DNA of 48,048 nt from a virus, in the IMG/VR virus record IMGVR_UViG_3300042888_001925, positions 1-48,048 of that record; one strand, written 5' to 3'. Position numbers and translations under genes: made by a program. The notes beneath the pieces are model-generated. The model was not told the DNA's origin, did not search any database, and saw only the letters and a program-made list of their open reading frames with translations. Shown piece by piece: positions 1 to 37,900 of the stretch (within the stretch, counting starts at the first letter, position 1; each line of letters begins with the position of its first letter).

Positions 1-403
1 CCAGCTTGTTCAGCTTGACCCACTGTTGCAACTGCTTGCGAATAATGTCTACTTCGTGGTCTGTGGGTTTGTCTTTGTAGTCTACTTCAAATGGTGTGCC
101 ATTTGACTGGTTGGGCTGTGTGCTAAACTCAGCAATGATATCCAGACATGCATTGATTTCTGAATCCATGTCCATGTTTTCGTACTGGTTGTAACGTTCA
201 ATTCGGTTGGGATGACCCGAATACACTTCTGGCAATCGACTGGCATAGTTACGAAACACAAAGTCTGCTTGTACTCCTGAATTGTTTCCGTCGTTTTTGG
301 GATACCCGTTTAGGCCAAACTGATTTTTTCCCGATATAGGACTCAGCTGGCCAGACGTGTCTGCCACTTTGAAATATTTTTTCCAGGATTGTTGTTCTGC
401 CAT
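1..403 (-). CDS. 20: Portal vertex protein, T4 gp20-like (N-terminal part only)
   Basis: The reading frame starts at an ATG (positions 403-401, minus strand) and stays open to the window edge, so about 134 N-terminal residues are visible and the rest is missing. The stretch YNQYENMDMDSEINACLDII is typical of the N-terminal part of T4-type portal proteins, in which the chain begins to wrap around the portal ring. Portals form the dodecameric DNA gateway at the capsid vertex, dock the terminase during packaging and hold the tail afterwards. The gene follows the tape measure gene on the same strand with an 18-nt gap, so both are probably co-transcribed late. A GGTAAATA box lies 7 nt before the start codon. 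The family call rests on the N-terminus alone; the diagnostic core lies outside the window. Confidence 0.8.
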   Translation of the reverse strand, partial: MAEQQSWKKYFKVADTSGQLSPISGKNQFGLNGYPKNDGNNSGVQADFVFRNYASRLPEVYSGHPNRIERYNQYENMDMDSEINACLDIIAEFSTQPNQSNGTPFEVDYKDKPTDHEVDIIRKQLQQWVKLNKL

Positions 404-421
404 AGTAAGTTATTTACCGTG

Positions 422-3373
422 TTAGTAGCTGGATGCCAGTATCTTTTGCTGTACATCCACACCGTTTTTGGTGGCAGATACAAGTTCTTGCAACAGGGGT
501 GCTATTTCAGAGGAATCCATCGACAGGGCACGACCGGTCATTGTCACAGCAAACTTCTCTGCCATGCTGCTCATGCCTTTTATGAGTTCTTCACCAACCT
601 GTTTGAGTGCTGCTTCTGTGGTGGTATTGCCTTGTTCTTTAATTTCTTTCAATCGGTCAGCCATATCTTGGTCTATCCCCGGAAGAGCCTTGGTACCAAG
701 TTCGGCATTGACCAATTTATAGTTGGTGGCCAGACCAGACGATAGAATTTGTTTCCAGGTAGCAGGATCTGTAATTATTTGACTGGTTTTGTCAAATGCC
801 CCAACTGCTTCCGCAAGTTTTTTAACTGCCTCAATGTCAGTGGACATTGGTCCCATATTGTAACCTGCATACTCATTGTATCCGCCCATGCTAGGAGTAT
901 TCAGTGCATCTTTCAAATTCAAACTTACAGGCACAGCACCATCTTTTAATGGGATTACTGCTTCGTCTCTGCCGCCTTCTCCAATGATAGCCGGAGTTCC
1001 GCCATTGGACGCCTTGACTATGCCGCCGTCTGCCATCATTTGCACATGAGGGTGGTCGTTAGCAATAAAAGGACGGAATAAACCAGCATTGGCCAATAGC
1101 TCGTCTATGGGTCCTTTGCTTTTTCCCATGCCTGCTACACTGATATCTACTGCATTACCAACACCGTGTAAGCTGCCTCGGCCTTGTCCCTTGACTTGAT
1201 AAGTCTTGCCTTTGTAGGTTATTTCCTGATCATCTTTTGGAGCAGCAGGCATAAGGATACCTGGCTCCTTGAGTATGTTGCCTCTGACCCAGAGTTCTGC
1301 CTGCTTCTGGTCAGATCTATAAGCACTGTTTACATCCACTGATTTGCCAGATGCTTGTGCAAATTGTTCCAATCTTGAAACCATCTCTGGTATAACGCCA
1401 GACATGTCTGCGTTTGGGCCTATTTTGAGACTACCAGCACCACCTGCTGCAGGCGTAGTTTTTCCCGGTTGGCCGTCGGGTGAACCGGCTGATGGAGGAG
1501 GTGATCCGCCTGCTGGAGCCATTGATCGTGTTGTTGCGCCGCTTGCAGGTGCTGCGCCGCTTGCAGGTGTTGCGCCGCCACCTGCTGCTGGTGCTGCTCC
1601 TCCACCTGCTGGTGCAGCCGTACCAGCACGACGTGCAGTTCTTTCGGCATTTTTTTCTCTCTGAGCTGCTGCTCTCAGAGCATTGGTTTCATTCATCATG
1701 TCCCGAGCACTGTCAGCTGCTTGTTTTTTGATAGCTTCTTTTTGTTCTTTGCTTAATGCAGCATCTTTTTCTGCTGCTCTTGCTCGCTCTGCATCTGCTT
1801 TGGCTTTTTCTGTTGCTGCTGCGACTGTCTTTCTTGCTTCGTCTGTTGACGGTCCAGTGCTTGCTGCTGTAGCTGCTTGTGGCCCAACACCTACGCCAAA
1901 CATTTTGGCCATTGCACCAGCAGCTAAAGTAGTTTTTTCAACCAATACAGTCATGGCCTTGGTAGCAGGTACCACTCCAGCAAATACAAATTGTTCTACT
2001 GCTTTATTGCCTTTTTGTTGCATGAGAACCAGATCCGTTTGTGCTTGCACTGCTGCGTCTGCTGCTTTGCTACCGTCCATTCCTTGCTTTTTACGTTCGT
2101 CATCGGCCTTCTTCATGTTTGCAACAATATCGCCGTCGGCCATTTGTCGAGCTTTTTCAAACTCTGAAAAATCACCAATGCTTGCATTTACTCCAGCTAA
2201 TCCAATGTTAACATCATCATTGAACTTGCCAATTGTTTTACCTGTTTTTTGTGCTGCTTCAGCTACTGACATCTGGTTTTTAATAACCATGTCAGTTGTA
2301 CGCATCATTTCATTCTGACTAGCAATACCAACCTCAATTGCGTCAGCATTAGCATAGTTTCCAGTAACAGATGCCTGAAAAGCAGCAGCCATTTTTGGAC
2401 CCATAGCACTATACATTGAATTTAATGCCATTAATCTGTCAACTGCTTCTGTTTGGCCTGCTTTTGTTAGTTCTCGAACTTTGGATGCAAATTGTTGTTG
2501 CTGCAAAGCTCGAGCCTGCTGATCTTCCATCTCTTTGCGAGACTGACCTGTAACTTTAGCCAACAAGTCCTGTTCGTTTAAATATTTTTTTGCGCCTGCT
2601 GCTAGCTCTTCTGTGGTTTTATTTTGTGCAGCACCTGTGCGAGTTTGTATTCTCAAATAAGCCATTGATCCAGCGTTAATTTGCTCTTGACTCAGGCCAG
2701 CATTCATCAACGACTCTTTGAACGGCTCCATTGCTTCGCCCATGTCAGCAAATCGTTTGCGGCCTTCGAATACACTACCTGAAAATAACGCAAGATCTTT
2801 GGAATTTGCTGCGATCAGTTCAGTGTACTGACCAATCTCGTTCATGCTCAAACCAAGCTTCTTGGCATCATTGAACAGTCCAGTCATGCCATCGCTGGCA
2901 GCAGCACCTGATTGAGCTAGATCTTGATAGCCTTTGTACAGCTGATCGCTCATGGTATTGGCAGCTTGTGTGTACTTTTTACCTGCTTCTAAAAAAGATA
3001 CCGTGAGCAATCCTATGCCAGCCATCAAACCTTTGATCAATGGGCCGCCAGGTACCAGCAAAGTAAGGGCAACTGCTGCCAACTTGGCTGAATCGGTTAA
3101 ATCGTCTAAAGTGCTGTTTAGTGCAGCAGCACCTTTTTTGCCGTCAAGTAGAGCTTTTCCAGAATTGAATGCCGCTGAGCCCAATTTTGAAAGAGCATCA
3201 GCACCCATGCCAGATGCCTTACTAAAGCCGTCTAAGCCATATTTGGTTTTCATTTCAGCGTCTTTGAGACGCTCAGCTGTGGAGACGTGTAATTCCCCGT
3301 ACATTCGCATCTCTCGATTGACCTGCGCCATTATCTCAGCAAACTCTTGCGATTCGCGATTTATTTCAGCCAT
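422..3373 (-). CDS. Tape measure protein with embedded M15 (VanY-like) peptidase domain
   Basis: This 983-residue protein has tape-measure features: long helical, Ala/Lys/Gln-rich stretches, a hydrophobic segment near residues 97-126 and a C-terminal motif, GGTPAIIGEGGRDEAVIPL, very common in phage tape measures. Tape measure proteins set tail length and pass through the cell envelope during DNA ejection. A Gly/Ala/Pro-rich linker (roughly residues 580-650) precedes an M15-type peptidase domain: SLHGVGNAVD supplies H736 and D743, and DHPH supplies H776 with an acidic D773 three residues earlier, matching the SxHxxGxAxD...(E/D)xxH zinc pattern. This family cleaves peptidoglycan peptide bonds. 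The gene sits between the portal and a divergent gp26-like gene, unlike the T4 order where gp29 lies among the hub genes. A perfect minus-strand late promoter precedes it. T4 gp29 (590 aa) is shorter and has no peptidase domain, to my knowledge. Confidence 0.85.
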   Translation of the reverse strand: MAEINRESQEFAEIMAQVNREMRMYGELHVSTAERLKDAEMKTKYGLDGFSKASGMGADALSKLGSAAFNSGKALLDGKKGAAALNSTLDDLTDSAKLAAVALTLLVPGGPLIKGLMAGIGLLTVSFLEAGKKYTQAANTMSDQLYKGYQDLAQSGAAASDGMTGLFNDAKKLGLSMNEIGQYTELIAANSKDLALFSGSVFEGRKRFADMGEAMEPFKESLMNAGLSQEQINAGSMAYLRIQTRTGAAQNKTTEELAAGAKKYLNEQDLLAKVTGQSRKEMEDQQARALQQQQFASKVRELTKAGQTEAVDRLMALNSMYSAMGPKMAAAFQASVTGNYANADAIEVGIASQNEMMRTTDMVIKNQMSVAEAAQKTGKTIGKFNDDVNIGLAGVNASIGDFSEFEKARQMADGDIVANMKKADDERKKQGMDGSKAADAAVQAQTDLVLMQQKGNKAVEQFVFAGVVPATKAMTVLVEKTTLAAGAMAKMFGVGVGPQAATAASTGPSTDEARKTVAAATEKAKADAERARAAEKDAALSKEQKEAIKKQAADSARDMMNETNALRAAAQREKNAERTARRAGTAAPAGGGAAPAAGGGATPASGAAPASGATTRSMAPAGGSPPPSAGSPDGQPGKTTPAAGGAGSLKIGPNADMSGVIPEMVSRLEQFAQASGKSVDVNSAYRSDQKQAELWVRGNILKEPGILMPAAPKDDQEITYKGKTYQVKGQGRGSLHGVGNAVDISVAGMGKSKGPIDELLANAGLFRPFIANDHPHVQMMADGGIVKASNGGTPAIIGEGGRDEAVIPLKDGAVPVSLNLKDALNTPSMGGYNEYAGYNMGPMSTDIEAVKKLAEAVGAFDKTSQIITDPATWKQILSSGLATNYKLVNAELGTKALPGIDQDMADRLKEIKEQGNTTTEAALKQVGEELIKGMSSMAEKFAVTMTGRALSMDSSEIAPLLQELVSATKNGVDVQQKILASSY

Positions 3374-3413: not shown

Positions 3414-4256
3414 ATGACCCAGATTTCTAACCCGCTGCGACAATACTTTAGACAGCCTGCAATTTACTTGCGATTACCCACTGGCGGCCGGCACTGGCCT
3501 TCAGGCTCACTAGACCTACCGGCCAATGGAGAACTGCCTGTGTTGCCCATGACTGCCATTGACGAAATCACCTACAGAACTCCCGACGGCCTGTTCAACG
3601 GGCAAGCAGTGGTTAGTGTGATACAAAGTTGTGTGCCCAGTATCAAAGATGCTTGGAAAATTCCGCAGCCGGATCTCAATGCAATTTTGACTGCCATACG
3701 AATTGCCAGCTACGGACATGAACTTGAAATTGGCACCAAATGCCCCAATTGCACACACGAAGATGATTATGTGTTAGATCTGCGAACTGTGTTGGATCAG
3801 TTGAAAAGTGCAGATTTTGATGAACCAATGGTGCATGGTGACTTGACCATTACATTCTGCCCCATGAGCTACGAGAGTCAAAACATGACCAATCAAGAGC
3901 AGTTTGAAGAACAAAAAATAATGCAACTGTTGCCAACAGCAGACATGGAAGAAAAAGAAAAAATTCTTAGAATGCAAGAAGTCTTGAAGAACATCACTGA
4001 GCTTACACTCAAAGCACTCAAGTGGAGTATTGCCAGTATTCGAACTCCGGCTGCTATTGTGAGTGAGCCTGAATTCATTGACGACTTTTTGAAAAACTGC
4101 GATCGAGCCTTGTTTACCAAGATACGAGACCGTGTGATTGAACTGCGTCAAAATTCTGAAATCAAACCAGTTGGTATCACTTGCACCGAATGCGATAACG
4201 TCTACGAACAGCCCTTGACCTTGGATATGACAAGTTTTTTCGCACCCGCCTCCTGA
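3414..4256 (+). CDS. 26: gp26-like baseplate hub/tail assembly protein (zero-frame product)
   Basis: The 280-residue product resembles the T4-type baseplate protein family that includes gp26 (Pfam 'T4_baseplate'), whose members assist assembly of the central hub and tape measure. Two cysteine pairs, KCPNC (C110/C113) and CTEC (C257/C260), could form a split zinc ribbon. A helical, charged region (residues about 165-200) lies between them. The gene is divergent from the tape measure gene, with which tail-assembly chaperones usually pair. The frame ends only four codons after a T_TTT_TTC heptamer (4235-4241), the layout of lambda G/GT tail chaperone genes, so this protein is probably also made as a longer -1 frameshift fusion of 352 residues. 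The exact family is moderately certain; the size is larger than T4 gp26 (208 aa). Confidence 0.65.
   Translation: MTQISNPLRQYFRQPAIYLRLPTGGRHWPSGSLDLPANGELPVLPMTAIDEITYRTPDGLFNGQAVVSVIQSCVPSIKDAWKIPQPDLNAILTAIRIASYGHELEIGTKCPNCTHEDDYVLDLRTVLDQLKSADFDEPMVHGDLTITFCPMSYESQNMTNQEQFEEQKIMQLLPTADMEEKEKILRMQEVLKNITELTLKALKWSIASIRTPAAIVSEPEFIDDFLKNCDRALFTKIRDRVIELRQNSEIKPVGITCTECDNVYEQPLTLDMTSFFAPAS
4235..4241 (+). promoter_or_regulatory. Candidate programmed -1 frameshift slippery site T_TTT_TTC
   Basis: In the frame of the gp26-like gene the codons read AGT TTT TTC GCA, so the heptamer T TTT TTC fits X_XXY_YYZ exactly. Slipping back one base puts ribosomes into a frame that is open from 4235 to the stop at 4469-4471, giving a fusion continuing FF-RTRLLTSNAQEIADIVDGME. 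The zero frame stops at 4254-4256, shortly afterwards. I see no strong stimulatory stem-loop immediately downstream; a weak GCCG/CGGC pairing at about 4277-4294 is the only candidate. Confidence 0.6.
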
Positions 4257-4285
4257 CATCTAATGCCCAGGAAATTGCCGACATA

Positions 4286-4471
4286 GTGGACGGCATGGAG
4301 CGGGAGGCCGATAGTATCCGAAATGAAAGTTTAAAAATGTCATGGTACATGCGTGGTGGCATAACTTATGATCAAGTGCTGGCCTTGAGTCCAAACGAAC
4401 GCAAGATGATTTCGGCTATTATCAAAGACAACTTGGAAACTACCAAGAAAAGCAAACTGCCATTTTTCTAA
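4286..4471 (+). CDS. Small tail-assembly ORF, probably the -1 frameshift extension of the gp26-like gene
   Basis: The conserved-looking protein MSWYMRGGITYDQ...NLETTKKSKLPFF is charged, helical and ends in LPFF, like small proteins beside hub genes of marine T4-like phages. As a separate gene it would need a GTG start at 4286 (or the ATG at 4295), and neither has a recognisable Shine-Dalgarno sequence. The frame is open upstream through the end of the gp26-like gene back to the slippery heptamer at 4235-4241. The likely product is therefore a 76-residue extension joined to 276 residues of the gp26-like protein, in the manner of lambda gpG-T. Its stop overlaps the next start (TAATG). Independent translation remains possible. 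Confidence 0.6.
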   Translation: MDGMEREADSIRNESLKMSWYMRGGITYDQVLALSPNERKMISAIIKDNLETTKKSKLPFF

Positions 4472-7669: not shown

Positions 7670-8545
7670 TTAAAAAGTTGCCTCTCTTAATTCTGTCTCT
7701 CTTTGCCATTGGTTACTAAAACTTGAACTTCCGTCCTTGGATCCGCATGTGTTTAAACAAACAATATTGGGTTGTGAACTATTCCACGAATTCTGAACAC
7801 TGTCAAAATCTGTGACAAAATCTCGTTGTCTTGACCCCAACCAACAGCAAGGACTCATGTTACCTTGTGCGTCAATATATGCACTTTGTTCTCGAAGTGC
7901 ATGACAATCGACAGTGGCAGAAACAACTTGCGGAAACTGCCATCCTATTGGTGCTTCAAGTCTATCTGTAAATCCACGCTTGCTGATCTTGGCACGGAAC
8001 CAAGTAAACCCCATGTCTTGAGCCAGTTGTTCACACTCGTCGACTTGATGTTGATTGTGTCGGTAAACCAGCATGTCCCAGTGTGCTGACCCACCTGCTT
8101 CTATAAATGCCTGTGCATTATTCATTAGCTTGGACCACTTGACATTCTTTCGATATGTTTCGTTTGTGCTAGCCAATCCGTCAATACTAAACACAACATA
8201 ATCCAGTGGTTGATTGAATATGGTACCCAATGCATGCCACCAAACTGTGGTTTGTATGCCACCATTGCTGTTCATTCCCAGAGTGATGTTGGGGTTTTGA
8301 CTTCTAAAATAATTGTAAATGTCCAGAGTATGTTTGCCAGCAGCAGGATCGCCATAGTTGCCACACATGAACATCTTGTCAAGTTGTGCAATTTGCTCGT
8401 TAGGGAAGTGTTCAAGGATCTGCTCCACTGTGAGATGATGCTGACGATCCTTACGAAAATCAGCATCAGTTTCTCTAGCACACAAGGCACATGCCGCTTG
8501 GCATACATCCGTAGGTTCTAGGTGTAAGACTTTTATATCACGCAA
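7670..8545 (-). CDS. Radical SAM protein with SPASM-like C-terminal cysteines
   Basis: The start is a TTG at 8545: the frame has a TAG stop two codons upstream, and no ATG precedes the cluster motif. The motif CQAACALC gives C15, C19 and C22 (CX3CX2C), which binds the 4Fe-4S cluster that reductively cleaves S-adenosylmethionine. A GNYGDP segment sits where the 'GGE' SAM-binding strand is expected. C-terminal cysteines (CHALREQ, SPCCWLG, CLNTC) resemble a SPASM/twitch extension that holds auxiliary clusters in peptide- or sugar-modifying enzymes. The gene overlaps gp46 by 8 nt and so is part of the gp55-gp47-gp46 operon. The substrate is unknown. A second radical SAM gene lies at 47553. Confidence 0.75.
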   Translation of the reverse strand: MRDIKVLHLEPTDVCQAACALCARETDADFRKDRQHHLTVEQILEHFPNEQIAQLDKMFMCGNYGDPAAGKHTLDIYNYFRSQNPNITLGMNSNGGIQTTVWWHALGTIFNQPLDYVVFSIDGLASTNETYRKNVKWSKLMNNAQAFIEAGGSAHWDMLVYRHNQHQVDECEQLAQDMGFTWFRAKISKRGFTDRLEAPIGWQFPQVVSATVDCHALREQSAYIDAQGNMSPCCWLGSRQRDFVTDFDSVQNSWNSSQPNIVCLNTCGSKDGSSSFSNQWQRETELREATF

Positions 8546-25400: not shown

Positions 25401-25917
25401 GATCCGCGACACCACAAACACTGTGCCAAAACCTGATGTGCCAACCATTGACGAACTCAACACTGCATACCAAGGATTGCAAAATTACAAGATGATCAGT
25501 GACAACATTGTCATGAACTCTGTGCAATTCAAACCGTTGTTTGGCGTCAAAGCTGCGCCCGAATTACGTGCAACTATCAAAGTTATTAGAGCCAGTAATT
25601 CAACCGCGTCAATCAGTGAGATCAAGAGCTCAGTGGTTGCAGAAATGAACAGCTACTTTAGCATTGACAAATGGAATTTTGGCGACACCTTTTATTTCTC
25701 AGAAGTATCAGCATATTTGCACAGCCAATTGGGAACCATTATTAGTTCAGTGGTCTTGGTACCACTGAATACCCAAAAGAGCTTTGGTGATCTGTATGAA
25801 ATCAGATCAGCTCCCAATGAGTTGTTTGTAAATGCAGCAACCATTGACAACATAGAAGTGATTGATGCCTTGACCAGCACTAACTTACGTACAGCACCAG
25901 GAAGCGGAGTAATCTAA
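22459..25917 (+). CDS. 6: Baseplate wedge protein gp6-like
   Basis: The 1152-residue protein starts with a gp6-type N-terminus: FQSYDFETLRKSFVDYLRLYYPETFNDYIESSEFIALLDVIAFMGQALAFRTDLNTRENYLDTA. gp6 and its relatives (gpJ family) form the dimeric iris ring that holds the wedges of contractile tails together. A strand-rich middle (NGLQYIINPEEMQAVTLPIS, then EPIAEIKQRAPARYYTQNRMV, a baseplate J-like stretch) and a C-terminal wedge fold (IVMNSVQFKPLFGVKAAPEL... to VVLVPLNTQKSFGDLYEI) follow. It is well over the 660 residues of T4 gp6, as in other marine T4-like phages. The stop shares a base with the start of the giant gene, preceded by GGAG. Confidence 0.87.
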   Translation: MATTTRQTAIFGVEDWKQIYQTYREADFQSYDFETLRKSFVDYLRLYYPETFNDYIESSEFIALLDVIAFMGQALAFRTDLNTRENYLDTAERQDSVNRLADLVSYTAKRNTAAEGLLKVFSVVTTENVVDYNGVNLSNVTVDWADPTNPDWQEQFTAIINASLVDTQKIGRPGNRQTLLGVRTDEYAVNLVPGFLPVIPYASTVDGINMPFEAVTSTSVGEDYLYEPSPQPNQPFNVLFRNDQLGFSSNNTGYFFMFKQGVLQNQDFNLAERIANRTVNINVEGINNQDRWLFQLDNVGTITREWQFVENVYSAGAEQLGTTLRPIYSVTSRVNDQITMVFGDGVFSEIPVGTFRAYVRASNGLQYIINPEEMQAVTLPISYISRSGNLETITFTCGITQPVSNSQSREPIAEIKQRAPARYYTQNRMVNGEDYNLFPYTQYNSILKSKAVNRASIGTSRYLDLVDNTGKYSSTNTFGSDGGIWEQLILPTINFTWDTRNEIADVITNQVQPQIGQSTMRQFYYANFPRENVNTGLTLGSTWQQSTTLANETTGYFKNAAGTPIPVGISAGTLSPFYYAIVGSLVKFIPPAGYYFDRNNRLVQGSPTRADERLEIWASPMDVIADGMNNGLGNLSSGAGPITINNFVPTGAIVDTIIPLFVTDLPLDLETTISEQIVLYRNFGLGYDNDGSVTGTAYSWYLITSTNLDQDATWSQANAGSQTGQGLDASWLIQFVTANNNYTITFRGLAYSFGSVLQTRFFFYDGQQVYDSRTGTVIKDFINCLAVNPQPDSTESLPGDIIMTIIGQPVESDGYVDDFQVLVSYRDSDNDGVPDNPDFFDEIVAPTVNPTQKYVFLQQTVDFDNLQRYLLVEPDRVTSDYATLDDIELVKSEWSPGQVFYAYDQVNNDGTTGAFYELSIGATGVRTIVAVSGWIARTGRQSLYYQYRHNSPLTNRIDPGTTNIIDLYVATQAYYTAYQNWIRDTTNTVPKPDVPTIDELNTAYQGLQNYKMISDNIVMNSVQFKPLFGVKAAPELRATIKVIRASNSTASISEIKSSVVAEMNSYFSIDKWNFGDTFYFSEVSAYLHSQLGTIISSVVLVPLNTQKSFGDLYEIRSAPNELFVNAATIDNIEVIDALTSTNLRTAPGSGVI

Positions 25918-28900
25918 TGGCAACTACTCGTTCGGTAGACTTTCTCCCACAGATTTTTCAAACTGAGACCAACAAGCAGTTTTTGGCTGCCACACTGGAT
26001 CAACTGATTCAAGAACCCAAATTTAAAAAAACACAAGGTTATATTGGCCGCACAGTGGGTCCTGGCATAAACCCCAATGACAAATATGTGGTTGAACCAA
26101 GTACCACTCGTGCTGACTATCAACTAGAACCAGGTGTTATCAGTCTTGAACCAGACACTGATAAAATTAAAAATGCAATTACCTATCCTGGGATCAATGA
26201 TGCTGTGCAATTCAATGGCGGCAACGAAACACGACCAGATCGACTGTATGCCAGTGAGTACTACACATGGGATCCGTTTGTAAACTTTGATACTTTTGTA
26301 AATTTTAGTCAATACTTTTGGTTGCCATCTGGCCCTGCCGCAGTAGACGTGGCTGCCACTGGCGTCCCTACCACTGATAATTTTGTGGTCAATCGAGAAA
26401 ACGGTGTTTACACATTCTCGGGTGTGGCTGGCAGCAATCCTGTGATTGAACTGGTTCGTGGCGGAAGTTACACTTTTCAAGTGGCACAAAATGCCAAAGA
26501 AACAGTGAACTATCGAGTGTCCAATGTTGGAATATCAGCTTATCAAATTGATTACCAGCCCAATCCTGCACTAACGCTGGCTCGCGGCAACACCTATGTG
26601 TTCAATCTGAATCTCAATGGCAACTATCCTTTTTGGATCAAAACAGCAGCCACCACCGGAGTTGGTGATGCTTATAACTCTGGAGTGAGTCGCAACGGTG
26701 CGTTGATTGGACTGGTAACATTTACTGTGCCGCAAGACGCACCAGATACTCTGTACTATGCTAGCCAAACACAAGCCAACATGCAAGGCGTTCTTAATAT
26801 TGTTGACGGTGATGCTGGCACTGGCCCAGGTTTCTGGATACAGGCTGCCCCTGGCATTTCTGGCAAAGTGCCCACTACTCCAAATATTAGTTCACGAGAT
26901 GTGTTGGGAGTGGTCAACAATGGTGAAGACCTTGGCCAAATCACATTCAACGTTCCTTTAAAAACTGCACAGTCGTTTTACTACGGCTTGACAGATTTTG
27001 GTCCAATAGATTTAATTTGTGATCTCAAATTCAATCAAATCAACAACGTGTCTGTTGAAGAATTTATGTCTGCCTACGGCGGCATTGACGGGATTACCAA
27101 TCTTAATGGTCGCACCCTGGTCTTCACTGAACCTGTTACTGATGCACAAGCAGGCGGCTGGCAACAAACTACTTTGTATGATCCGTTGCCAGAGAACAGC
27201 ACATTCAACGCTCAACCAGGCAGTTTTGACACTGTATTTTTTGATCAAACAACTGACATTGCTCCAGCAGATCGTTATCAGTTGTGGCAGATCAATTATG
27301 TGACGCTGGGTGCGTATACCTATATGACCTTGGTCAAAATTAATACAATACCTAATCTCAACAAGTTTAGAATTTTGTACGGTTCAACCTACAGCAGCAC
27401 TCAATGGTACAAGAACAACACTGGAGTGTTTGAACAAATTCCTTTGCTGACTGCAATACAAGATACCTTGTACTATCAAGACGGCACAGATCCAGAAATT
27501 TTTGGACGTATTAAATTGTTGGAACAGGCATCTGCTAGCACCATAGACGTTGATGAAATTTTAGGACAAGCAAATTACGTCAGTCCAAACGGTGTGGCAT
27601 TTACCAATGGTCTCAAGGTCAAATTCATTGGTGATGTGATTCCAGCCAATTATGCATCAGGTACGTTTAACTTGCTGTGTACGTCGGCAGAATTTGGTAC
27701 AAACTACATCACCACGGCTAGCACAGCCAACCTATATGTGGGTGAGCAGATTACATTCTCAGTGCCAACTATTGGTGGCCTAACACCCGGAACCTACTAT
27801 ATTCAAAGCGTTGCTCCTAACGGAATACAATTTACTGTTTCTGTTCAGCAGTACGGAACACCTGTGGTATTAAGCCCTGGTACAGCCAATGTCACAGCAA
27901 TTGTAACCAGCAATTTAGAATACTACGTGAGCAATGTGGGCACTGCAATTGAATTATTGCCAGTAACTGACTATATAACTCCTGAAACTTACGTGGTTGA
28001 TAACGATACCACTACTATAAATGCTGAGCCAGATACACTGGATTATTTGACCATTGATCGTGCCAGCAAAGATCTGAATCCGTGGACTCGTAGCAATCGT
28101 TGGTTCCACCTTGATGTGATCAATGCCACGGCTGAATACAACAACACCACCGCAGCTTTTGACAATGCCTACAGAGCCAAACGACCAATCATTGAGTTCC
28201 GTCCTGGCGTTAGACTCTGGAACATGGGAACCGATGGCAAACAACCAGTTGACATAATTGACTTTGAAGAAACTGATGCCTTTAGTAACATACAAGGCTC
28301 CACTGGCTACACAGTAGATGGATACGAACTAATTGACGGTAGTAGAATTATTTTTGCAGCCGACGAAGACGCGGATGTCAAAAACAAAATCTATGTAGTG
28401 AGTTTTATTAATCCAGACACCGTGAGTCCGTTGATTTCGCAACCTATTATCAATTTGACTCTAGCTTCTGACGGTGTAGTGTTGACTGACCAGTCCACAG
28501 TGTGTGTTGCTGGCGAGACTTTGGTAGGACTGACTTTTTGGTTTGATGGCTCCGACTGGGCACAAGCGCAACAAAAGACTGGAGTACAACAAGCTCCGTT
28601 GTTTAATGTTTATGATCCCACTGGTGTAAGTTTTGGTGACCAAACAAAATATCAAAGTTCAACCTTTACCGGCAGCAAGTTGTTTAGTTACGCAGTTGGG
28701 GACACAGGCATTCTTGACCCTGTGCTGCAATTTCCGTTGCAATACTTGAACATCAACAACGTTGGCGACATTGTGTTTGAAAACAATCTATACAAAGATA
28801 CATTCTTGTATGTGTTGGACAACGCCAGTGTAACATCAAATATCAGTTCAGGCAGTGTGCGTGATTACACTTCACGTGTTGTTTACAATCGTGAAATTGG

Positions 28901-31900
28901 ATGGCAAACAGCAGCGAGTGAAAGTCAGATTCGTCAGCAGTTTAAATTTTCATATTCTGGTGCAACACTAAAACTAGATGTGCGTGTTGACGACTCGCTG
29001 AACAATATACCACCAATCAAATTATATGTGGGCTCAGTGTTTCAGGCACCGAGCACCTATAGCTATACTAGAACTAGCAATAGTACTACAATTACACTGG
29101 GCAAAACTTATGTGCTTGGTGATATTATTGAAGTAGCGGTTCTTAGTGGCCAAACCAGTCAAGTAGCGTTTTATCAAGTTCCAATTAACTTGCAGAACAA
29201 TCCGTTAAACGGCAACAGCGATAGTTTTACTCTGGGCACAATTCGTACTCATTACGAAAGTATCTGTGAAAATTTAACCACTGTGTCTGGAACCATCAAT
29301 GGAGCCAACAACACACGGGACCTTGGAAATATTGTTCCTTACGGCTTAACCATCCTGCAACAGAGCGCACCATTGACCCTGGCTGGATATTTCATGCGCA
29401 GCCCAACGTTCAATGTGTTTAGTTCGTTAAACTATAACGATCGCGAATACAACAAGTTTAAGTATCAATTGTTGGATGCAGTTACCAAACAAAATATTGA
29501 GTTTAACACCACTGCTCAGGTGTTGGACACAGCCATTGAAGAAATTACACTGGGTCGAGTTGAAACACAACCTTTCTATTGGTCAGACATGTTACCCAGT
29601 GGTGCAGTGTACACTACCACAAACTACACAGTGAGTTTGACCAGCACAAATACTTTTGACACAGTACAAGTTTACAACTACACGTCAGCAAACTATCTTG
29701 GTATGAATGTATATCTCAACGATGTAATTCTTACTCGTGGAGTTGATTACACTGTGCCAGCAGACGGTCCGCGTATTGTGGTCAGTGCTGCATTGACACT
29801 GGGTGATCAGTTGACCATTCAAGAATACACTGCAACCTACAGCAGCTTTGTTCCCAACACACCTACTAAAATGGGTTTGTATGCTGCGTATATTCCTGGT
29901 ATTCTCACCCAACAAACCAGCACTGGATTTATACAGGTCATACAAGGCCACGACGGGTCTATTACACCAATCTTTGGAGACCTACGTGACGATGTGTTGT
30001 TGGAGTTTGAAACTAGAATTTACAACAATCTCAAACTTGATGGCAATCCAGTTCCAATGACCATATACGATGTGTTACCAGGACAGTTTAGAGACACTGG
30101 GTTTACCTATGCTGAAATTAGCTCAGTGTTCAATGAAGATTTTTTGAACTATGTGGGTGGCAACAAGCTGGATTACAAATCCCAACAGTACATTGCTACC
30201 AATCAGTTTACCTGGAACTACAGTTCTGCACAAAACAAACTCAACAACGAAACGCTGTTGGGCGCCTGGCGCGGCATCTATCGTTATTTTTACGACACTG
30301 AACAACCTCAATATACTCCTTGGGAAATGTTGGGCATCACAGAACAACCGTCTTGGTGGGAACTCACATATGGACCTGCTCCGTATACCTCTGGTAACAC
30401 TGTGTTATGGGACGATTTGGAAGCTGGCTTAGTAAATGATCCAATTGCTCCTTATGTAAAAACTGATTTTGTGCGTCCAGGGCTAAGTCAGGTGATTCCA
30501 GTAGATGACGAAGGTAACTTGTTGAGCCCGTTTGATTCTGTGGTTGGAACATATAACCAAACTCAATTCCAGAAAAGTTGGGCATCAGGTGACGGCAGTC
30601 CTGTTGAAGCGTCGTGGTGGAACAGCAGCAGCTATCCATTTGCAGTGATGCAAGTGTTGGCAGTGACTCGACCAGCTAAATTCTTTGCATTGTTTGCTGA
30701 TCGTGATTTGTATCGTTACAGCGAAGAATATGGTCAGTACCTATACAATGAGAGATATCGTCTGGATGCAAACGGTGTTGAAGTGTACGGCGATGGCACA
30801 AGCAAAGCCAGTTATATCAACTGGATAGTAGACTACAATCGTCAAACTGGTGTTAACTCTACCACAGAACTCACCGCTGATCTCAAGAGCCTGGATGTGC
30901 GACTGTGTTATAGAATGGCCAGCTTTAGCGACAAACAGTACATCAAGATTTATACTGAAAAGTCCAGTCCTAATTCAACCAATACTGCACTGTTGATACC
31001 TGACGAAAGCTATGACTTGTTGTTGTACAAAAACCAACCGTTTGATCGTTCTAGTTATTCAGCGGTAGTTGTGCAAAAAGTTGACAATGGATATTCTGTA
31101 TTTGGATATGGCACAAGTTTGCCTTATTTCAATATTCTTGAAAGCAAAGCCACCGGATTACTGCAAACAATTTCATCTGGTGGTGTGACTGTTCGTGTGC
31201 CCACGTTCTATACTAACACAGTAACACAAGTTCCGTACGGTTTTATTTTTACAAATGAAACCAGTGTTTGCGATTTCTTACTGAGTTATGGCAAGTTACT
31301 GGAAAGAGAAGGACTAACTTTTACTGATCAGTCCAACGGCTATATCTTGACCTGGAATCAAATGTGTCAAGAATTCTTGTACTGGAGTCAGCAAGGATGG
31401 GATACCAACGCATTGTTGAACTTGAACCCGTTGGCAATGAAACTTACTGTGACCAGAGAACAAGCAATTGTTGACAGTATCAGGGTACAAACCATTGACA
31501 ATGTGCTGCTAGATCAAAATCGCAGAGAACTAAACACTCGAAATCTAAATATTGTACGTATTGGAAATACTTTCAGTTGTGAGCCATTGACTAATCAAAC
31601 ATTGAGCTTTATTGATCTCAAGTTTACAACATATGAACACATGATTGTACTGAACAATCAAAGTGTGTTTGGCGATTTAATTTATGCACCAATCACCGGC
31701 GCACGACAAAGCCGATTGAACTTGGTTTGCGTGAATACCACAGACTGGACTGGACAAGTTGACGCACCTGGATTTATTCTCAATCAAGACAATGTTGAAG
31801 AATGGACAGGATTACGAACTTATGCAAAAGGTGAAATTGTCAAATACAAAAATGTGTACTGGTCGGCTCTGACTATTGTTCAACCCAGTATCAAGTTTAA

Positions 31901-34900
31901 TTTTGGCGACTGGACTCAAAGTGATTACACACAACTTGAACTGGGACTGTTGCCAAACTTGAGCAACAAAGCCAATCAGTTGACCAACACCTACGATATC
32001 AATTCGGCCAACATTGAACGTGACAACGATTTGTTGTCGTATGGATTGATTGGATTCCGTCCTCGTCAGTACATGGCGGCACTGAATCTTGATGATGTGA
32101 GTCAGGTCAATGTGTATCGTCAGTTCTTGGGATCCAAAGGCACCATCCTTAGCGCCGAATTGTTTTCCAATGCTAATCTTGGCAAAGAAGCTGCTGACTA
32201 TGACATTTATGAAAACTGGGCAGTTCAACGTGCTGTGTACGGTGCAAATGCTAACCGTAGCTTTTTTGAATTACGATTGAATCGTGCGTTGTTAAACTCT
32301 AACCCCAGCTTGGTACAAGTGGTGTTGCCTGGTCAAGAATCTGAAGCTGACCAACCAATACTGTTGAGTGATGTGTGGCGACAAAGTTACAAGTTAACTA
32401 GCCCAGATATTTTACCAACCACAACAGAACCAATTACTGATGCAGCATTGCCTACCGCCGGCTATGTGAATCTTGACGATGCTGACATCACAGTATTTGA
32501 CATCAATGACTTGGCCAACGTCAATGCAAACATTGATCAAATAGGTGTGGGAACCAGTATTTGGGTTGCTAAAATAAACAACTACGACTGGAACATTTAC
32601 CGTGCGCAAGCGGTACCTGGCGCAATTCAGCACGTTTGCGACAACTTGGACAATACTAGTCGTGTGATCTTTAGTCAACAACACGGTCTTGTTGCAGGAG
32701 ACACATTAATTATCAAGTTCTTTGATGTAGAAGTTGATGGAGTGTATGAAGTGGTGAGTGTGCCTAACCTTACCACAGTAAATATTGTATTCCAATTTGC
32801 AGGAGACCGTGTGGTTGCCAATGGCACAGGACTTGGATTTACTTTGCAAACCATGCGTGTGGCACAAGCAAGCGACATTGTTAACTTGCCATACGCTAAT
32901 GATATACTGCCAGGTGCCAAAGTTTGGGTAGACAACAATGGATCTGGCAACTGGGAAGTTCTTGAAAAACAGGAAGTGTTTACAGATGTTGCACAAATCA
33001 GTCCATTGTTGTTGGACGCAACAGAACACTTTGGATCTAGTGTTGCACAAGCAACCAACCGACTGGCCATGTTGGTTGGCAGTCCTCGTTACAATCATGC
33101 CAGCGGCAGCAATACCGGCGCGGTATATGTGTATGTAAAAAACTACGGTGATCAATATTCACCAGTAAGTCCCGTAGCCAATGCTGACGGAATTCTTTCT
33201 TTGACCATTACAGGAGCCAGAGGTTTTGGTAATGCTGTAGACTTTGGCAACCAAGAATGGGCAGCAGCAGGTGCTAGTGCTAGCTGGGGACCAAACGGGG
33301 CCGGCGAAGCTGATTCAGGATATGCCGCAGTTATCTATCGAGATCCTGCACTGGGACAACCAGGTGTTAATCCTTATGCAGTTTGGCAATTGTTAACACA
33401 GCCTGGCACAACCACCACTACCACACCGGGTGCTGGAGAATTTGGCTACAGCGTGGCTATGAGTCTTGATGAACGTTGGATGTATATTGGAGCACCTGGC
33501 CTCAACCAAGTACATGCTTATGGTCGAGTAGACTGGGAACAACAATTTGTTAAAGCTCTAGGTAATGACAGCACCGCCAGTTATAACATTTCGCAGACAA
33601 TTCAAATTGATGACGATTCTCAATTGATTGTTACCATTGACGGACAGGTGCAGTTGCTGGGCACAGATTACACTGTTACACTTGCTGGCGGTGTGTACAC
33701 CACAGTGGTGTTTACTACCGCACCAGCAGCTGGGACTTTGGTTAACATTACTAGAATCTATGCCAAACAACTTGACGCACAAACTTATTTTGATGTAACT
33801 CAAAGTGCAACTTCTGGTGTTGGAGTTGGTGCTGAATTCACAATAGTGCGTGTTCGCAACGAAGTAGGACAACCAGGTTCAACTGACGGTCCCACTGTTG
33901 GAGTAACAACTGCTGGCACTGGCTATGTAAATGGAAACACAGTAACTATTGCTGCTAGCAGCTTTGGTGGTCAAGCAGATATTGTGCTAACAATAACAAG
34001 TGTTAGTGGTTCAGGCGGCATTACAGGATTTAATATTGCGTATGTTCCAGTGAGCTTGACCACAGTGTTTAGTCTAAATGAATTATTTTTCACAGTTGAC
34101 AACATCTATTCGTTCAGTATCACAGTTGATGGAGAAATATATCGTCCCAACATTGATTATACATACAATGTTGGCACAGGTGATATTACTTTTGTAACTG
34201 TTCCAGCAGCAGGCACTGTGATTGTTGCCACAGCTCAGGGGTATTTTGAATATGTCAACACTCTAACTACTGCTGGTCTCATTGCAGGAGATCGTTTTGG
34301 ACAAAGCGTAAGTTGTTCAACCGATGGGCGTCAAATAATGATTGGTGCGCCTGATAAAACAGTAAATGGCAAAGTTGAAGCAGGCGCAGTGTATGTGTTT
34401 GACCGTAATGTACAACGTTTCATTTATGGGGAAGATGGCAGCACTGTTGACTTTACCTTGCTTGGCACACCAGTTGGACCAATTAGCGTAATTGTTAATA
34501 ATGTGTTCTTTGTCAACGAGGCTGATTCAACAATTGGTGCTCCCAACAGTTTTTACTGGGACGGCGCAAACACAGTTACAATTGTCAACGCTGATTTAAG
34601 ATTTGGTGATGTGATTGAAATTGAAACCAACCAATTTTCACTGATACAAACAGTTTCTCAAGCCACCGTGGCTGAATTTTCAAACTTTGGTCAAAGTGTA
34701 GATTTGTGTGCTTACAATTGCAGTTTGTATGTGGGCGAACCACAAAGCAGTATTCAAATCTTCAAAGGTGGAGTGGTAGAACGTGCAGTAAATCAAAGCC
34801 GTGTATACGGAACTGTCACCGCAGGCGCTGCCAATCCTGCACTGACTGCTGGCAATACTGTTCGTGTCAACAACATGGATGTGACTGTACCCAATGCTTG

Positions 34901-37900
34901 GAGTAGTCTGAGTACCTACGCCAAGAACACTGTGGTATACAATTTAAGCGGTGGGACATACACAATTTATGTGTCCATACAGTCAGTACCATCAAGCACA
35001 GCAATTACCAACACTTCATACTGGCAATCAGTAACCACTACCACTGTGGCAGCAAGTGTCAGTGTGCGTGCCTTGGCTGCACAAATCAACGTCGCGGTAC
35101 CTAATGTAAGTGCTACTGTGAGTACCACTGGATACCTAACTGTTGCAGTAAAAAACAGTGCTGCGGCCGCAGAATTTAATAAACTACAAGTTGCACCTGG
35201 CAGTGTTGGAATAGCATTCACCACACTGGATTTCAGTACCTTTGTTCATACACAAGTTATTGTTAGTCCGTATCCGGTAGAAATGGGTGGGTTTGGTGCA
35301 ACTATCAGTATTGATGATACTGCCACAGCGCTGGCCGTGGGCACACCGAACGGCACATTGTACCTGATTACGATATTCGACGACGGCACAACTGACTTCG
35401 ACGTTGGTAGTACCATATTCTTCAGCACTGTAAATCAAAGCGGTGCAGTGTACACATATGATTACTTGCCTAGTTCTAGCCCAAGTGTAACCAATCCAGG
35501 AAACTTTGTGTTTGGACAACAAATTTCCAATAGCGAAGTAAAAGAATACGACCAGTTTGGCTTTGCCTTGAACTACACATCAGGTGTGTTGGTAGTAGGT
35601 GCGCCATACAACGATGTAGAAGATAGCACAGCAGCATTTGGCAGAGTATTTGTGTTTGAAAATGCAAACCGTACACCAGCCTGGACAGTGCTGCGAGAGC
35701 AACAGCCTGTGGTTGATATTCGACTGTTAAACTCGGTGTTTACATACGATAGAATCACCAGTGCAACCACTCAATTCTATGACTTCTTTGATCCATTGCA
35801 AGGCAAAATACTTGGCGCTGCAAGACAAAACATTGACTATATTTCGGGTATTGATCCAGCAAACTACAATATTGGGCCCACTGGCATTAACGGAGCAACT
35901 TGGACAGCAGAGCATGTAGGACAAGTATGGTGGGATATCAGTAGTGTTAGATTTATTGATCCAAACCAGGACGACATTGTTTATGCTAGTCGTCGATGGG
36001 GTCAGGTATTTCCTGGATCAAGCATAGATGTATATCAATGGGTACTGAGTTCAGTACCACCTTCTGACTACACTGGCCCTGGCGTACCACAAAATACACT
36101 GAGCTACAGTATTAACAGTCGTCTTGGTCGTGATGGCATTTTTGCTACAGAATATTATTTCTGGGTGCGCGGTGTTACAAGCACAGCCACTCAGCAAGGC
36201 AAAACACTCAGTGTAGAAACAGTGGCACAGTACATTGGTAATCCAAGAGGATCTGGTATCAGTTATGTTGCTCCGATCAATGCCAGCACAATTGCATTGT
36301 ACAATGCTGGCGAATATATTGAAGCATTTGATACCGTAATCAACATTGAATTTGATAGAGAATACACCAATGACAATGTTCACGTTGAGTATGAACTGAT
36401 TGGTCAAGATAAACCAGATGCATTCCTGAGCGATAACCTGTATCGAAAACTGCAAGACAGTTTCTGCGGTGTTGACACATTTGGTAATTTGGTTCCTGAT
36501 CCAGGTTTAAGCATTGCTGAACGCTACGGCGTGCAGTTCCGCCCAAGGCAGAGCATGTTTGTTGATCGCTTTGACGCTCTTAAAAACTACTTGACTCGAG
36601 CCAACAATGTACTGGCTCTGTATCCCATTAGCGAAAGTCGCAGTTTTAATCTACTTAATTCAGCAGAACCAGAACCATCTGCAAACTCAGAATTATGGAA
36701 CTTGCGAGTTGCTAATTTAGAAATTTTGGGATTCCAAAATATCAATTCAGTTGCTCTAGGTTACAAGTATCTAGTGGTCAGTGACAGCGATAATCGGGGA
36801 CTGTGGACAATCTATACTGTACAAGCAAATGATCAAGTGCCTGGCACCCGCGAATTATTGCTGACTAGAGTTCAAGGTTATAATACCACAGATTACTGGA
36901 GTTACATCAACTGGTATCGTCCTGGTTATAATTCCAGCAGCAAAATTATTGCTGAAGTGGCCAATATTGCTGCACTAGATGTATTATCTGTGGCAGTTGG
37001 CAGCAGTGCAAAAGTCACAGCAAACAGTCAAGGTAAATTTGAGATTTATTTGCTAGAAGACACTGGTTGGAGTCGCGTTGGACTCGAAGACGGCACTATT
37101 GAATTCAGTGCTGAACTATGGGACTACGCACTAGGACGATTTGGTTTTGACATTGAAGTGTTTGACGCTCAGTACTATGACCAAGAGCCAGTGATTGAAA
37201 CACGAAAAATAATTCAGGCAATTAACGAAGAATTGTTTGTGGATGATCTAATATTAGAACGAAATCGTGCATTGACTCTGATGTTTAATTATGTGTTGAG
37301 CGAGTTCTCTGCACCTGAATGGCTGGTCAAAACTTCACTGATCGATGTTGATCATAGAATCCGCGATCTTACTCCGTACCAGAACTATCGTCAAGACAAT
37401 CAAGAGTTTGTGTTGGACTATATTCAGGAAGTCAAACCTTATCATGTGCAAATACGTGAATTTAATTTAAGATACAATGGCTTTGATGATTTTCTTGGCA
37501 CACTAACTGACTTTGACTTGCCTGCATACTATGACACTACTCTGACCGTTCCTCAGTATACTAGTCCAATCTTACTGCCATACGATCACGGCACTGCCCA
37601 AGTCAGCAATGTGCTTAGTGATTTACCATCAACTAGCACAGTATGGAGCAATTTTCCGTACAATCAATGGTACAACAACTATCTGTTGACAGTTACATCT
37701 ATTGAAATGATTACTGGTCGTTTTGGTACAGGCTATACTGAACCGCCACAGGTAATTATTACTGGAGATGCAGTTGAACCTGCGGAAGCAGAAGCCATCA
37801 TCAACAGTCTTGGACAAGTTGTAGCGGTAACAGTTACCAATCCAGGTTCGGGCTACAACACCATTCCTGTTGTGACGTTTGATGGCGGCAACGGATCTGG

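Follow-up and report, generated by a model that had tools for sequence, protein, structure and literature searches.

A probable lambda G/GT-like programmed −1 frameshift in the gp26-like family of hub assembly chaperones and its likely replacement by gene duplication in the T4 lineage

What is the status of an open reading frame that overlaps the 3′ end of a T4 gp26-like gene in the −1 frame and shows no clear start of its own? The question arises from a 48,048-nucleotide stretch of a virus record (IMG/VR IMGVR_UViG_3300042888_001925, positions 1–48,048), hereinafter the window. The zero-frame gene (3414–4256, + strand) codes for a 280-residue protein of the T4 baseplate hub assembly chaperone family: it is a member of PF12322 (T4_baseplate, gp26/gp51; 4.4e-12, 46.6 bits against a curated cut-off of 24.5) and matches phrog_150 (baseplate hub) at 4e-15. 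Its AF2 model is fairly confident (mean pLDDT 83.5) and matches predicted phage proteins, many of baseplate-hub types, the best viral predicted-structure match (TM 0.86) being annotated as “Baseplate hub assembly protein, bacteriophage T4-like”; a fold search of the PDB returned nothing at E ≤ 0.001. The fold is predicted widely, for example in Campylobacter CP220, Bacillus SP-15, Erwinia phiEaH2, PaBG and phiRSL1.

The zero frame ends in ATG ACA AGT TTT TTC GCA CCC GCC TCC TGA, with the slippery heptamer T_TTT_TTC at 4235–4241 (+ strand) and four sense codons between it and the stop TGA (4254–4256). Past the heptamer, the −1 frame reads TTT TTT CGC ACC CGC CTC CTG and remains open for 76 codons up to a TAA at 4469–4471 (extension 4241–4471, + strand). 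Simultaneous slippage of both tRNAs would yield a predicted fusion of 276 + 76 = 352 residues, the extension being modeled by AF2 as helices (the BFVD fold search with this model found nothing at E ≤ 0.001). A preliminary description of this DNA had proposed precisely such a heptamer, extension and fusion: the heptamer four codons before the stop is directly legible, and re-reading the sequence gives the same figures for the −1 frame and the fusion. The site is the only in-frame X_XXY_YYZ in the window's gene. Nevertheless, as such sites occupy about 0.4% of the codons of this gene family (53/13,077), a heptamer in a single sequence is weak evidence, and its significance in the window alone was set aside as support.

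The close relatives examined comprise 80 IMG/VR loci of 54–100% identity, 49 of which are non-redundant at 92%. In all 80, an in-frame TTTTTTC precedes the zero-frame stop by a constant distance, and wherever the contig is long enough the −1 frame is open for 71 codons past that stop. This conservation places the heptamer far beyond chance: any other in-frame heptamer of the same kind is common to at most 9 of the 49 non-redundant relatives, and phenylalanine elsewhere in their gene is encoded by TTT in only 66% of instances. The extension is likewise constrained, with a −1 frame pN/pS of 0.40 in codons 7–19, which precede the conserved ATG, and 0.185 in codons 20–77, as compared to 1.3–2.2 in the other frames. 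Judged by these ratios, purifying selection acts on the −1 frame already upstream of the first conserved ATG, the low value in codons 7–19 indicating selection as protein before any good start. That the extension is merely a functionless, decayed remnant of a formerly continuous gene is contradicted by this strong purifying selection and by the fixed frame relation; we found no support for such decay and give it a negligible probability.

The extension might instead be made as a separate small protein, either from an internal start or by ribosomes that reinitiate at the gp26 stop or immediately past it. It is indeed annotated as a separate ORF in P-TIM68, DLP6, D490, RL38J1, 121Q and BF, in some with a one-base start-stop overlap and in several under the label “gp51 baseplate hub assembly catalyst”, and the sister clade of the window's relatives has an AGGAGG suitably placed before an in-frame ATG (see below). 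However, a start codon with a four-base Shine-Dalgarno match occurs before codon 23 in only 5 of the 49 relatives, and the window's own candidate, a GTG at 4286, is weak and unconserved, which agrees with the earlier claim that the −1 frame lacks a clear start or ribosome site. Moreover, selection acts on codons 7–19 and the motif F-F-R-x-R-L-L is invariant in the relatives, upstream of any start. A separate protein also does not need a heptamer that is kept at about 30% identity and through a change of the zero-frame residue, and in T4 gp51 the equivalent domain is fused to a gp26-like body. Hence, we hold a separate protein to be very improbable and prefer a programmed −1 frameshift.

The comparison of homologous loci proposed in the preliminary description extends the conservation from the 80 relatives to very large distances. 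The jumbo phages Atu_ph07, Phosso, PA5oct, 121Q, BF, Kaldavass, XbC2 and PHA46, with gp26 proteins of about 30% identity, all keep TTTTTTC 3–13 codons before the stop, followed by an open −1 frame with FFRxxLL-type extensions; the 121Q/BF-type and window-clade extensions give a profile match of 98.4%. Among 85 loci drawn from searches with cyanophage gp26 and with 121Q, 83 combine T_TTT_TTN with a −1 frame open for at least 30 codons. The heptamer is TTTTTTC in 79 and TTTTTTG or TTTTTTA in four (L172–L175), in which the zero-frame phenylalanine has become leucine, yet the slippery T run is kept. Conforming phages include DLP6, Cronobacter S13, Moby, Aeromonas AP1, D490 and P-TIM68 (TTTTTTC) and RL38J1 (TTTTTTG). 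In a last test, four phages were picked by name without prior view of their sequences: KVP40 and Aeromonas 65 carry TTTTTTC, HTVC008M and Cr30 carry TTTTTTT, and all four have the extension and one PF12322 copy each. The shift-site runs of the latter two comprise 7–8 T, on which transcriptional slippage could add to frameshifting.

The two nonconforming members of the 85 are a truncated contig and S-SCSM1 (NC_070962; L091 4640–4875). The latter keeps the heptamer, its −1 frame is shut after six codons (FFRLES), and its gp51-like ORF of 54 residues lies in the +1 frame; this is either a sequencing error or a real exception. Across 29 whole phage records, T_TTT_TTN accompanies a single PF12322 copy in 21. 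Five Ackermannviridae-type records (CBA120, Kevin, TASP06, Kuja and D532) have one PF12322 copy and an open, homologous −1 frame, but where the shift would occur they carry just the tetramer T_TTC or something similar (L190–L204, L186, L094, L183, L187); the extension is unannotated in the CBA120 record. We also sought homologues with the two frames in another relation or in separate genes, which the preliminary description regarded as speaking against a frameshift: the frame relation stands in most, the departures being S-SCSM1, with its other frame, and the T4-type phages, with a second gp26 copy. This family has the hallmark of a G/GT-type system, namely a canonical heptamer close to the 3′ end together with a −1 frame that is conserved and open.

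In T4, phiAS4 and phiS, gp26 lacks the heptamer, and these phages code for two PF12322 proteins as compared to one in the 26 other records. The second copy is gp51, which carries the extension, whereas gp26 does not: T4 gp51 matches PF12322 at 3.9e-52 and is covered by phrog_150 up to 280/282, while gp26 ends at 235. The cyanophage −1 extension matches the C-terminus of T4 gp51 (the phrog_634 domain) with 96.9% probability (E 1.9e-10). For the extension of the window's clade the match to this C-terminus is marginal (4.4%, E 0.009), and homology between the two was dropped as a claim. A tree unites T4-type gp26 and gp51 in one clade (98/96), apart from the one-copy phages, including the Straboviridae S13 and AP1. 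Taken together, the profiles and the tree identify gp51 as a paralogue of gp26. The association of the heptamer with copy number over the 29 records (p = 0.015) is driven by one lineage and counts as a single event because the two-copy phages constitute that lineage. The simplest history is one duplication, after which one copy would have lost the extension and the other fused with it, the direction of the change being read from the distribution and not from a rooted tree. We consider it likely that the gp26 family of the T4 superfamily inherited the −1 frameshift from its ancestor and that T4 split the gene into a G-like gene 26 and a GT-like gene 51. If so, this would supply a function for the unexplained but essential gp51, account for the short gp51 of cyanophages and represent a natural case of gene duplication replacing a recoding event.

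The candidate stimulators of slippage differ between clades. CGCCTCC(T) starts 5–6 nt past the heptamer in the window's clade, its CGCCTC being invariant in 49/49; this invariance was discarded as proof of an RNA element, as dual coding explains part of it, the third bases being the second bases of zero-frame Ala-Ser codons. We restricted the evidence for a stem to partner switching and covariation. In the window, the 5′ arm GCCTCCTG (4248–4255, + strand) lies 6 nt past the heptamer and would pair with the 3′ arm CGGGAGGC (4301–4308, + strand). The partner site AGGAGGC(G) is located at +66..73 in the window's part of the clade and at +88..95 in the sister clade, a switch that broadly tracks the gp26 tree, and in several lineages a 5′ arm with CTCTT goes with a 3′ arm with AAGAG. 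Overall, 90.4% of stem cells are paired as compared to 39–63% in slid versions, six cells are altered on both sides, and covariation is significant by a Fisher test uncorrected for kinship (p = 0.007). The glutamate codon of the partner site is GAG in 34/35 and 14/14 sequences (26% elsewhere). In a synonymous-shuffle test the stem reached p ≤ 0.05 individually in just 5 of 49 sequences, and a local hairpin directly past the heptamer is not indicated, folding at +7..60 showing no excess (mean z 0.40). On the pattern of pairing, the long-range stem is a probable stimulator of slippage in the window's clade. Cyanophages show a different candidate: all 41 non-redundant loci have a Shine-Dalgarno-like GAGGG or AAGG 8–10 nt upstream of the heptamer, as against none of the 49 in the window's clade. 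This motif is a probable stimulator there, although selection at the RNA level is inseparable from that on the encoded Glu-Gly, which is also conserved.

These elements bear on two further possibilities. The T run might give access to the −1 frame through slippage of RNA polymerase rather than of the ribosome, as the runs of 7–8 T in HTVC008M and Cr30 would permit. Yet the typical run has just six T, and the downstream pairing and upstream Shine-Dalgarno-like motif sit at distances typical of ribosomal stimulators, which favors translation; we rate the transcriptional route as very improbable. Alternatively, some lineages could produce both the frameshift fusion and, from an internal start whose Shine-Dalgarno sequence the stem hides, the C-terminal domain on its own. 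The AGGAGG of the sister-clade 3′ arm, 7–9 nt before an in-frame ATG at codon 34, could be such a sequence and is near-perfect for that start, whereas the window's own clade has GGGAGG with no in-frame ATG at Shine-Dalgarno spacing. A dual product appears unlikely to us, and it would add to the frameshift explanation rather than exclude it.

The divergent gene at 422–3373 (− strand) codes for a 983-residue candidate tape measure protein with a VanY domain (PF02557, 3e-5); the annotated tape measure of S-SCSM1 also has a VanY domain (8e-4, that domain alone), and the Phosso gene in the same place is weakly similar (E 0.018). No PHROG match was obtained, and the PHROG and NCBIfam searches yield no name for it. 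It is possible that 422–3373 is the tape measure, perhaps with a VanY/M15 peptidase. In T4, the hub assembly chaperones listed include gp26 and gp51, of which gp51 is not in the particle and gp26 is uncertain (PMC3004832). The lambda proteins gpG and gpGT, which bind the tape measure, are not present in virions (PMC5009743). In the PA5oct record, several neighbors carry an ESI-MS/MS virion mark and the gp26 gene does not, which fits a location outside the virion without proving it. By analogy, we infer that the gp26-like pair serves the tape measure as lambda G/GT does. Elsewhere in the window, 25917–40814 is a single ORF of 4965 codons for a giant virion-like protein downstream of baseplate genes, and 7670–8545 (− strand), near gp46/47-like genes, has an N-terminal cysteine cluster that on reading alone suggests a radical SAM enzyme.

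The comparative evidence covers the heptamer and its frame relation to the extension, selection in the −1 frame, the paralogy of gp26 and gp51, and the number of PF12322 copies. On this basis we propose, with a probability of about 0.88, that a chaperone family unrelated to that of lambda uses a G/GT-like programmed −1 frameshift, which gene duplication replaced in the T4 lineage. Under this proposal, the majority of ribosomes would stop at the TGA to release the 280-residue gp26-like protein, and some would slip by −1, with both tRNAs, at T_TTT_TTC to make the 352-residue form with its 76-residue helical extension; in the window's clade the long-range stem 6 nt downstream probably aids the slip. 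The short and extended forms would cooperate as tail or hub assembly chaperones, with the tape measure protein as their probable client. Duplication would have taken over in the lineage that comprises T4, phiAS4 and phiS, with gp26 as the short and gp51 as the extended form. The G/GT-like arrangement that the preliminary description saw here finds support in the conserved heptamer and frame; its link to the tape measure retains the standing of an analogy.

According to a 2016 review, G-T frameshifting is widely conserved among phages with long tails, “except T4” (PMC5009743). Our search of the open literature yielded no description of frameshifting in the gp26 family; should the frameshift be real, the T4 superfamily would cease to be an exception. 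In T4-like cyanophages and in vibriophages, gp51 is short, with the first ~200 residues missing; a 2010 paper that mentions neither frameshifting nor gp26 took it as a reduced gene (PMC3037559). We instead equate this short “gp51” with the −1 extension itself.

As in lambda gpG/gpGT, a short protein would have a −1 extended form, the slippery site is near the 3′ end, the extension lacks a good start codon, and the product is probably an assembly factor rather than an established part of the virion. The lambda slippery site is G_GGA_AAG, unlike the T_TTT_TTC found here, and the window's gene adjoins a divergent gene rather than lying upstream of the tape measure. The gp26-like protein belongs to another family (PF12322) than gpG. 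Searches of Pfam, PDB sequences and PDB folds returned no match of gpG type, and hence no structural tie between the two. T4 gp26 and gp51 belong to the same Pfam family as the window's protein, gp51 consisting of a gp26-like body and the C-terminal domain found in the cyanophage −1 frame; unlike T4, with its two genes and no heptamer, the window has a longer extension, marginally similar to the gp51 C-terminus. Finally, the Shine-Dalgarno-like motif of cyanophage gp26, 8–10 nt before the heptamer, recalls the upstream Shine-Dalgarno stimulator of dnaX, also in its spacing, whereas the window's clade lacks such a motif and probably uses a downstream stem instead.
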